A DNA stretch of 64,000 nt. Source: Sphingomonas horti (lineage in GTDB: Bacteria; Pseudomonadota; Alphaproteobacteria; Sphingomonadales; Sphingomonadaceae). The notes under the pieces are model-generated. The model was given only the letters and a program-made list of their open reading frames with translations. It did no database searches and was not told where the DNA came from. Position 1 is the first letter of the stretch. Each line of letters begins with the position of its first letter. The stretch lies in contig NZ_WQMS01000016.1 of the NCBI RefSeq assembly GCF_009753715.1, forward strand, positions 310,001-374,000. The letters run 5' to 3'. A program made the position numbers and the translations under genes. This document shows, piece after piece, positions 9,766-31,213 of this stretch.

Positions 9766-9848
9766 CGTCATCCCGGCCTTGAGCCGGGATCCCGCTTCTT
9801 CTTTCTGGCAAAAGGCAGCGGGACCCCGGCTCAAGGCCGGGGTGACGA
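9766..9848. repeat. Palindromic repeat, CTTGA-loop family
   Basis: A near-perfect long palindrome. The left arm has GTCATCCCGGCCTTGAGCCGGG (core CCCGGC-CTTGA-GCCGGG, 9772-9788), the right arm the mirror image ending GGCCGGGGTGAC. It fills the gap between the convergent 47-aa gene and dapD, so it could act as a bidirectional terminator, though no T-run follows. Confidence 0.9.
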
Positions 9849-16038: not shown

Positions 16039-16102
16039 TGCCCTCACCCTCCCAAGCCTTCGGCTTGGGCCCCTCCCTCTCCCCGCTGGGGAGAGGGGCT
16101 CG
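15958..16102. repeat. Palindromic repeat across the sufD-sufS junction
   Basis: The element has outer arms CCCCTCTCCCGTTTCGGGAG and CTCCCCGCTGGGGAGAGGGG, and inner arms CCCATTGC.GCAATGGG and CCAAGCCTTCGGCTTGG. It contains the last 18 or so codons and stop of sufD, the 5-base spacer, and the first codons of sufS, so two operon genes have their ends rewritten by one insertion. Confidence 0.85.
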
Positions 16103-17168
16103 AAAGCCACGCATCCGCCTCGGCCGCAAACCCCTCCCGCACTTCGTCCACCCCGATCCGCTCCAGCGCATCCGCCACGAACGCCCGCGTCAGCAGCGCC
16201 CGCGCTTCGGCCGGCGGCACGCCGCGGCTCGCAAGATAGAACAACGCCCGCGCATCCAGCTCGCCGACGGTCGCCCCGTGCGCGCATTTCACGTCGTCGG
16301 CGAAGATCTCCAGCTCCGGCTTCAAATTCACCGTTGCCGCGCGCCTCAGCAGCAGGCCGCGCAGCGATTGCTCGGCATCCGTCTTCTGCGCCACGCGCGC
16401 GACTTCCACCCGCGCCGCAAGGCTCGCGACGGCCGTGTCGTCGGCGACCGCGCGCCAGGTCTGGCGGCTCATGCAGCCCTCGGCCTCGTGCCGCAGCACG
16501 ACCGCCGCTTCGTGCCTTTGCTCGCCCCGCGTCAGCAGCGCACCGCCCATTTCCGCGAATGCCGCATCGCCGGTCAGCCGCAGATGCCCGTCGATCCGGC
16601 TCCCCGCGCCGCCTTCGGCCAGCACGGTCGTGACCAGGCTCGCCCCGGTCGCGATCTCCGCCTCGTCGCGCAGGGACTGAAAGCCACTCGTCTGCGCCAG
16701 CCGCACCGCCCGCATCAGCCGCGCTGACCGCCCGAGCCGGATGGCCGTCAGCCGGTTCGCCCAGCCATCGCCGACGAAGGTCTCGACGATCGCGGCCTGC
16801 GCGTCGTCCTCCAGCGCGATCAGCCCTGGCACATGGCTGGCGCCGCCGGTCCCGACATGCACGATCTCGACCAACCCCGGCGCCGAATGGTCCCGCCCGA
16901 GCCGCAGCGCCCAGCCGGCGCCGGTCGCCAGCCTGCCCAGCGGATGCTCCGACCGCACGTCGACCGCACCCACTTCAAGCGGTCCGACCTTGCTCCGCGC
17001 CGCATCGAGCCGCCCGTCGACAAACACCAGCCGAGGCCCATCCCCCAGCGCCGCAGGCACTTCCACGCCCGCCCCGCTCGGCCCCTGATCGGCAAGCGCC
17101 GGCAGCACGGTCAAATCCGCCCACCGCCACGCCTCTTCACGGCTGGAAGGAAGGGAAAGGGCAGTCAC
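16044..17168 (-). CDS. sufD: Fe-S cluster assembly protein SufD with repeat-derived C-terminus
   Basis: SufD partners SufB and the ATPase SufC in the SufBC2D scaffold. The 374-residue protein shows the SufD/SufB beta-helix core and the conserved end region (DVKCAHGATVGELDARALFY, SRGVPPAEARALLTRAFV). After ...AADAWLS the chain continues with SPSPQRGEGGAQAEGLGG, which is encoded by a palindromic repeat and is not part of the family. The start is GTG at 17168 with GAGGGAG upstream, at the edge of a perfect inverted repeat. Confidence 0.92.
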   Translation of the reverse strand: MTALSLPSSREEAWRWADLTVLPALADQGPSGAGVEVPAALGDGPRLVFVDGRLDAARSKVGPLEVGAVDVRSEHPLGRLATGAGWALRLGRDHSAPGLVEIVHVGTGGASHVPGLIALEDDAQAAIVETFVGDGWANRLTAIRLGRSARLMRAVRLAQTSGFQSLRDEAEIATGASLVTTVLAEGGAGSRIDGHLRLTGDAAFAEMGGALLTRGEQRHEAAVVLRHEAEGCMSRQTWRAVADDTAVASLAARVEVARVAQKTDAEQSLRGLLLRRAATVNLKPELEIFADDVKCAHGATVGELDARALFYLASRGVPPAEARALLTRAFVADALERIGVDEVREGFAAEADAWLSSPSPQRGEGGAQAEGLGG

Positions 17169-17179
17169 GCCAGCGCTCC

Positions 17180-17245
17180 CTCTGCGCCTCTGCGCCTCTG
17201 CGCGAACTGCAATTTAGGTTCGCGCAGAGGCGCAGAGGCGCAGAG
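17180..17245. repeat. Perfect 28-bp inverted repeat between sufC and sufD
   Basis: The arms 17180-17207 and 17218-17245 are exact reverse complements, built from the unit CTCTGCGC, with a 10-base loop TGCAATTTAG. It lies between the sufC stop and the sufD start. A 28-bp stem in the polycistronic RNA could halt exonucleases, attenuate readthrough or regulate sufD translation, because its edge abuts the sufD ribosome binding site. Confidence 0.95.
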
Positions 17246-17268
17246 AAGGAAAGGAGTGCCTGCGGCGC

Positions 17269-18110
<842 letters not shown>

Positions 18111-18111
<1 letters not shown>

Positions 18112-18460
18112 TACAGGCCGTTCCGTTCCTTGAAATCCCGATTGTATTGCTCAAGTGAAACCCGAAGAATCCTGTCATACGACGATGTCGGGCAGCTTTG
18201 CTTGTACTCATCAGACAACGCCCGAAGTGGGTCTGATGCAATGTCCGCCACTCCTGCTTTCACCATGAACGGTCTGGGTCCGGTGTATCCGCCTAAGCGA
18301 TTCTTCGAATTCACCAAGCCACAGGTGACATCGCCCTTCGAGCCAACAGCATCGAACTGGGCCGATGAGGGATCTACGAGAGCGTCTTTCACAGCTGCCT
18401 TGGCAGACTGAGCTTGGCAGCCAGAGACAAAAGGCAAGGCAAGCAACAAGGCCAGCGATC

Positions 18461-18464
<4 letters not shown>
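18111..18464 (-). CDS. Putative lipoprotein inserted in the suf operon
   Basis: A 117-residue protein with a signal peptide and lipobox ([11 protein letters not shown]), then [18 protein letters not shown], resembling small proteobacterial lipoproteins and secreted proteins with a DPxSAQF motif, and two further Cys ([17 protein letters not shown]). No role in Fe-S assembly is known to me. It is coupled on both sides: its GTG overlaps the sufB stop by 4 bases and its stop overlaps the sufC ATG by 1. Its base composition is clearly lower in GC than its neighbours, with unusual codons for this genome, suggesting transfer into the operon. Confidence 0.75.
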
Positions 18465-27186: not shown

Positions 27187-27269
27187 CGTCATCCCGGGCT
27201 TGACCCGGGACCCACCTTCTTCCTTCGCACCAAAGGCAGGTAGGCCCCGGGTCAAGCCCGGGGTGACGA
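27187..27269. repeat. Palindromic repeat, CTTGA-loop family
   Basis: Core CCCGGG-CTTGA-CCCGGG at 27193-27209 and mirror GCCCCGGGTCAAGCCCGGGG on the right, with CCCACCTTCTTC in between. It fills the gap between the convergent HNH and DUF3035 genes. Confidence 0.9.

Positions 27270-28324: not shown

Positions 28325-31213
<2,889 letters not shown>

Follow-up and report, generated by a model that had tools for sequence, protein, structure and literature searches.

The suf operon of Sphingomonas horti poses the question of whether a long hairpin lying between two of its genes is a control element that sets the ratio of their products, or a dispersed repeat that landed in the operon and was tolerated there. 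The window analyzed here, the whole 64,000-nucleotide stretch of DNA, carries on its minus strand the order Rrf2, sufB, a 117-aa ORF, sufC, the palindrome, sufD, sufS, a sufT-like gene and sufA, with Rrf2, sufB, sufS, sufT and sufA named by reading their sequences rather than by family search. The 117-aa ORF (18111-18464, minus strand), between sufB and sufC, has a lipoprotein-like start and no Pfam match. The features of the junction are as follows:

16044..17168, minus strand: sufD (SUFBD core, PF01458), GTG start
17176..17182, minus strand: likely sufD Shine-Dalgarno GAGGGAG, read from the sequence, straddling the hairpin edge
17180..17207: left arm, (CTCTGCGC)3 GAAC, a Y-type octamer array with its outer (GAAC) end towards the loop
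17208..17217: spacer or loop, 10 nt
17218..17245: right arm, GTTC(GCGCAGAG)3, an R-type octamer array equal to the left end of the L095 GxxExxY module
17246..17256: purine tract AAGGAAAGGAG, 3′ of the R array, read by eye
17269..18111, minus strand: sufC (ABC ATPase, PF00005)

A sequence-only reading of this DNA had described a perfect 28-bp inverted repeat between sufC and sufD, with arms made of a repeated unit and one edge at the sufD ribosome binding site, and all three points are borne out. The two 28-nt arms (17180-17245) are 100% complementary across the 10-nt spacer, each consists of three octamers plus GAAC, and the likely Shine-Dalgarno sequence (17182-17176) takes in the final three bases of the arm. 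On the mRNA strand the stem begins ~23 nt downstream of the sufC stop, and the 3′ arm ends 11 nt upstream of the sufD GTG, which is the sole possible start because the reading frame is closed upstream by an in-frame stop. Allowing loops of up to 60, this is the longest perfect inverted repeat of the whole window, compared with longest arms of 11-15 in 20 first-order Markov sequences of equal length, and its folding z-score on the mRNA-sense strand is -9.2. At gathering score, Rfam returned two tRNAs only for the window and nothing at the palindrome, and a known RNA family was rejected on this basis.

Other palindromes occur in the window. An in-frame insert of SufC (17821-17923, within sufC) is a translated palindromic repeat with arms TCCCCTCCCGCTTGCGGGAGGGG; of 20 relatives examined, G081 and G053 have two other, unrelated repeat-like inserts at this place in the protein and 17 have none. 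A second copy of the CCCCTCCCGCTTGCGGGAGGGG palindrome of sufC lies at 29778-29873, and related-looking palindromes with 36-nt loops, CCCGGGCTTGACCCGGG and CCCGGCCTTGAGCCGGG, lie at 27193-27262 and 9772-9841.

The same reading had proposed that the hairpin affects RNA decay or sufD translation and through this the SufC:SufD ratio; the homologues speak against an evolved control of that ratio. Of 119 family genomes, 117 have a SufD match, and within the genus 5 of 6 genomes do; the junction was compared at 30 SufD loci listed from the family, one of them the window's own. At 22 of these 30 junctions the sufC stop and the sufD start overlap or adjoin, with no spacer. A spacer is present in the other 8; six of them, the window's among these, hold an inverted repeat with arms of at least 11, each of a different sequence, and the spacers of L054 and L065 hold no inverted repeat with arms of that length. 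Among congeners, G276 and G241 keep the overlap, and G081 and G149 carry palindromes at sufC-sufD that are unrelated to the window's and to each other (G149 by eye). When palindromes were mapped in 20 suf operons (arms of at least 13), sufC-sufD carried one in five operons, sufT-sufA in three and sufD-sufS in one, and the other junctions had none. The hairpin is thus not conserved: overlap in most relatives, together with unrelated palindromes or none in the spacers, fits a dispersed insertion rather than evolved control. These junctions also indicate that the hairpin is new in the window lineage and that the junction tolerates unrelated inserts.

The arms belong to a repeat class with the unit RCRCRRAG, headed by (G)TTC. 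Judged on its letters, the window palindrome is best read as a gene-less member of the octamer class associated with GxxExxY genes, with its outward ends facing each other: it consists of RCRCRRAG-type tandem octamers led by (G)TTC in an inverted pair, and its sequence is that of an array at a GxxExxY locus. The 28-mer of the arm is identical (28/28) to the left array of GxxExxY module L095, from another genus, and also makes up an arm of L087, a back-to-back palindrome. Two octamer units in a row, the 16-mer CTCTGCGCCTCTGCGC, are present exactly in 27 of 298 family genomes, the window genome included, and have no second exact occurrence in the 3.35-Mb window genome. There, a degenerate octamer pair with 1 mismatch is found 30 times, vs 32 for the reversed control, which is no enrichment; two more exact degenerate pairs lie at C22:385514 and C24:163790. 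With pairs at the level of the control and one clear copy, current dispersal is not visible in the window genome, and a dispersed family within it was rejected. The purine tract beyond the R array recurs in other copies (by eye, e.g. L001, L020 and L084). A comparison of ATGAGCGCC on the left with GTGACTGCC on the right as a target-site duplication gave 6 of 9 matching positions by eye and is not convincing.

Layout was counted at 28 of the 30 loci listed for this 16-mer, leaving out the window's own (L022) and a duplicate (L028). The usual arrangement runs R-to-Y, (G)TTC(RCGCRRAG)n ... (CTYYGCGY)nGAA(C), with some pairs in nested shells. Pairs of this kind within 250 bp number 16, vs 2 (L001 and L024) with the window's back-to-back Y-to-R layout, and this minority standing counts against an insertion. 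In named genomes the back-to-back core was found in seven stretches, six of which contain arrays by eye (L081 is without); the six come from Sphingomonas, Sphingomonadales and a Verrucomicrobiales MAG, and back-to-back arrays elsewhere have differing spacers and imperfect arms. Phage carriage was rejected, as viral contigs scanned at the protein level yielded no relative; the octamer pattern occurs in 30 viral stretches.

The small ORF inside several R-to-Y pairs is GxxExxY (TIGR04256; PF13366, PD-(D/E)XK superfamily; two proteins scanned). Such genes are present in 65 of 296 family genomes. The window genome has 0 matches, neither between the arms nor elsewhere, and so the palindrome is not an autonomous module. 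Bracketing was assessed by matching the left flank to the reverse complement of the right flank (score at least 15) at 90 GxxExxY loci, where split matches of one gene were merged, L048 (G017, below cut-off) was left out, and L225 and L226 stand in for L090 and L104 (the same genes). Inverted octamer arrays bracket 79 of the 90 genes, compared with 2 of 90 in direct orientation and 0 of 86 for flanks 400-555 bp away; the flanks of different loci match in 20%, because the repeat type is common to them. A stricter fixed octamer pattern places arrays near 21 of 32 loci (two of the 32 misplaced), on both sides in 20. In a phylum sample, GxxExxY matches occur in 57 of 299 genomes, with inverted arrays of 8-9-mers in a similar style at 18 of the 28 uncut loci among 30 listed. 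Five of eight matches on named plasmids were inspected: arrays are clear and inverted in Bacteroides and Bernardetia and one-sided in Gemmatirosa, Treponema has an 11-bp match only, and Sphingomonas has the left array only, its annotated gene end lying beyond the expected right array.

Protein and array distances are correlated (Spearman Mantel r 0.41, 0 of 2000 permutations; 79 loci, selected on array score). In genomes with several copies, mean array distance is 0.31 to the nearest protein relative elsewhere vs 0.58 to same-genome paralogues (34 elements). Among 84 locus pairs whose proteins are at least 72% identical, 64 share neighboring genes, so that much of the agreement between array and protein reflects common descent; that similar proteins sit mostly at homologous junctions argues for slow, mostly vertical spread. 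Genome G108 has eight copies (L088, L167-L173) with mostly different octamer spellings; the proteins of its L170 and L171 are 84% identical while their flanks are not homologous, the best hint of movement within a genome. Catalytic-type D...ExK spacing is present in 73 of 79 GxxExxY proteins, the GPGLLExxY motif in 67 of 79, and D69, E79 and K81 are invariant in an alignment of 12 proteins. Among solved structures, the GxxExxY profile found no match at E up to 1.

The module behaves as a clean presence/absence unit. The gap between fabD and fabG is 10 bp in the window genome vs 469 bp in congener G081, where it holds GxxExxY with octamer ends. Among 30 fabD-fabG loci listed, three have the module and five have other palindromes (arms of at least 12), and the junction is tight in most other genomes; the order fabD-GxxExxY-fabG is also found in a Sphingomonas record.

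We consider it probable that the palindrome stems from a dispersed octamer inverted repeat that entered a formerly overlapping junction by lineage-specific insertion, was probably tolerated there and may affect sufD. As far as sequence comparison reaches, its insertion relative to relatives, the identity of the repeat and the association with GxxExxY are demonstrated. In the proposed course of events, the ancestral sufC-sufD junction would have overlapped (ATGA/GTGA), and the repeat would have broken the overlap on insertion, bringing two GxxExxY-type array ends back to back without a gene between them. A GxxExxY-type activity, which congeners possess and the window genome lacks, may have spread or maintained the palindrome. 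In RNA, the perfect 28-bp stem would be a likely RNase III substrate, and an occluded Shine-Dalgarno would leave sufD partly uncoupled from sufC. The insertion was probably tolerated rather than selected.

Partition-function folding illustrates what the stem might do to sufD. The probability that the Shine-Dalgarno stretch is unpaired is 0.08 in context, 0.20 after removal of the 5′ part and 0.93 without both arms, and the difference between 0.08 and 0.93 makes an effect on sufD physically plausible; in silico the stem is very stable and the Shine-Dalgarno region is paired. Since the ancestral junction overlapped, the insertion probably removed coupling. RNase III cutting and reduced sufD translation are plausible. 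In the Coxiella 23S rRNA intervening sequence (IVS), RNase III cleaves the 28-bp stem around the insert in vitro (PMC4990558), which makes processing of the sufC-sufD stem a fair expectation, not a result. The hairpin probably does not act as a dedicated switch, yet it may disturb the second gene, sufD.

The insertion may also be without measurable effect on expression, a possibility we hold to be real if the lesser one, with ribosomes exiting sufC melting the stem base so that sufD starts normally. The stem lies close enough to terminating ribosomes, ~23 nt past the sufC stop, and many different inserts are tolerated at the junction in relatives, but the Shine-Dalgarno is predicted to be nearly fully paired and 28 bp make a long perfect duplex. 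That the palindrome arose through template switching that locally duplicated one octamer array in inverted orientation, or as an assembly artefact, is unlikely. Identity of the arms over 28 bp and the single copy in the window genome would suit such an origin, whereas other genomes have back-to-back arrays with differing spacers and imperfect arms, and the palindrome is internal to a 533-kb contig, which argues against an artefact. Template switching from one inserted array would in any case be compatible with the insertion that we favor.

We regard it as decidedly unlikely that the hairpin is a dedicated cis-regulatory element through which the SufC:SufD ratio is set via RNA decay or sufD translation. 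Its location at the sufD ribosome binding site and its strong folding favor such an element, and the recurrence of differing palindromes at sufC-sufD in several lineages could mean convergent use. However, the hairpin is missing in most relatives, where sufC and sufD overlap, the palindromes at the junction are unrelated in sequence, and similar unrelated palindromes are found at fabD-fabG (5/30) and sufT-sufA (3/20). Mobilization as a REPIN by a RAYT (Y1) transposase is very improbable: hairpin-forming inverted pairs that are extragenic and dispersed across genomes agree with REPINs as described (PMC3116915), but Y1_Tnp (PF01797) has 0 matches in the window genome, on which ground the candidate was rejected, and the arms are tandem octamers that track GxxExxY proteins instead. 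An intrinsic terminator or attenuator can be dismissed almost entirely, given that the strong GC-rich stem is followed by no T run on either strand, that a terminator scan was negative at the palindrome, and that termination here would cut off sufD, sufS, sufT and sufA.

Several known systems resemble the inserted repeat in part. It shares octamer type, orientation of the pairs and an identical 28-mer with the flanks of GxxExxY genes (TIGR04256 / PF13366 PDDEXK_3), but it encloses no gene, and its outer array ends point towards one another, with the loop between them, rather than apart. Rickettsia palindromic elements and other MITE-like repeats are likewise palindromes that were inserted within genes or in the gaps between them in particular lineages; the palindrome differs from them in being built of octamers and is intergenic here. 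Like REP/REPIN sequences, it is a short, extragenic, hairpin-forming inverted pair linked elsewhere to a nuclease-type gene. Unlike them, it has tandem octamers and a PD-(D/E)XK partner rather than a Y1 transposase (no Y1_Tnp in the window genome), and it is present in a single copy in that genome, not in many. The 23S rRNA IVS also has terminal inverted repeats, which form a long stem and enclose a small ORF (PMC4990558), while the palindrome lies within an mRNA between sufC and sufD, not in rRNA, and holds no ORF.

A parallel arrangement was observed at four-helix-bundle (TIGR02436) genes (L320-L348), which have inverted tandem 7-mer arrays on both sides, e.g. GTAGGCA, with bracketing at a score of at least 15 in 16 of the 29 uncut loci among 30 listed. 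In the literature searched, mainly outside subscription journals, we found no description of these 7-mer arrays, of the octamer repeats or of the pairing of GxxExxY with octamers. The pairing of GxxExxY genes with inverted octamer arrays is the most novel point of this work, and the octamer class with its tie to GxxExxY, along with the parallel 7-mer arrays, is the part worth pursuing. More tentatively, we propose a two-part selfish system of wide occurrence in which the small GxxExxY PD-(D/E)XK protein would recognize inverted tandem-octamer arrays, as palindromic DNA or as an RNA stem, with an own spelling for each protein lineage; gene-less palindromes would be its non-autonomous offspring, and the four-helix-bundle genes with their 7-mers a parallel system.

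The palindrome represents an event of an ordinary kind, the arrival of a repeat within an operon, and sufC-sufD provides an example of a junction between operon genes where the stop-start overlap is lost and unrelated palindromes gather. GxxExxY is a common and functionally unexplained nuclease family, for which the pairing with arrays offers a directly testable candidate substrate, and one class of intergenic hairpins may have originated from its arrays. If the proposal holds, the GxxExxY system would be organized like REPINs, but around a different enzyme.
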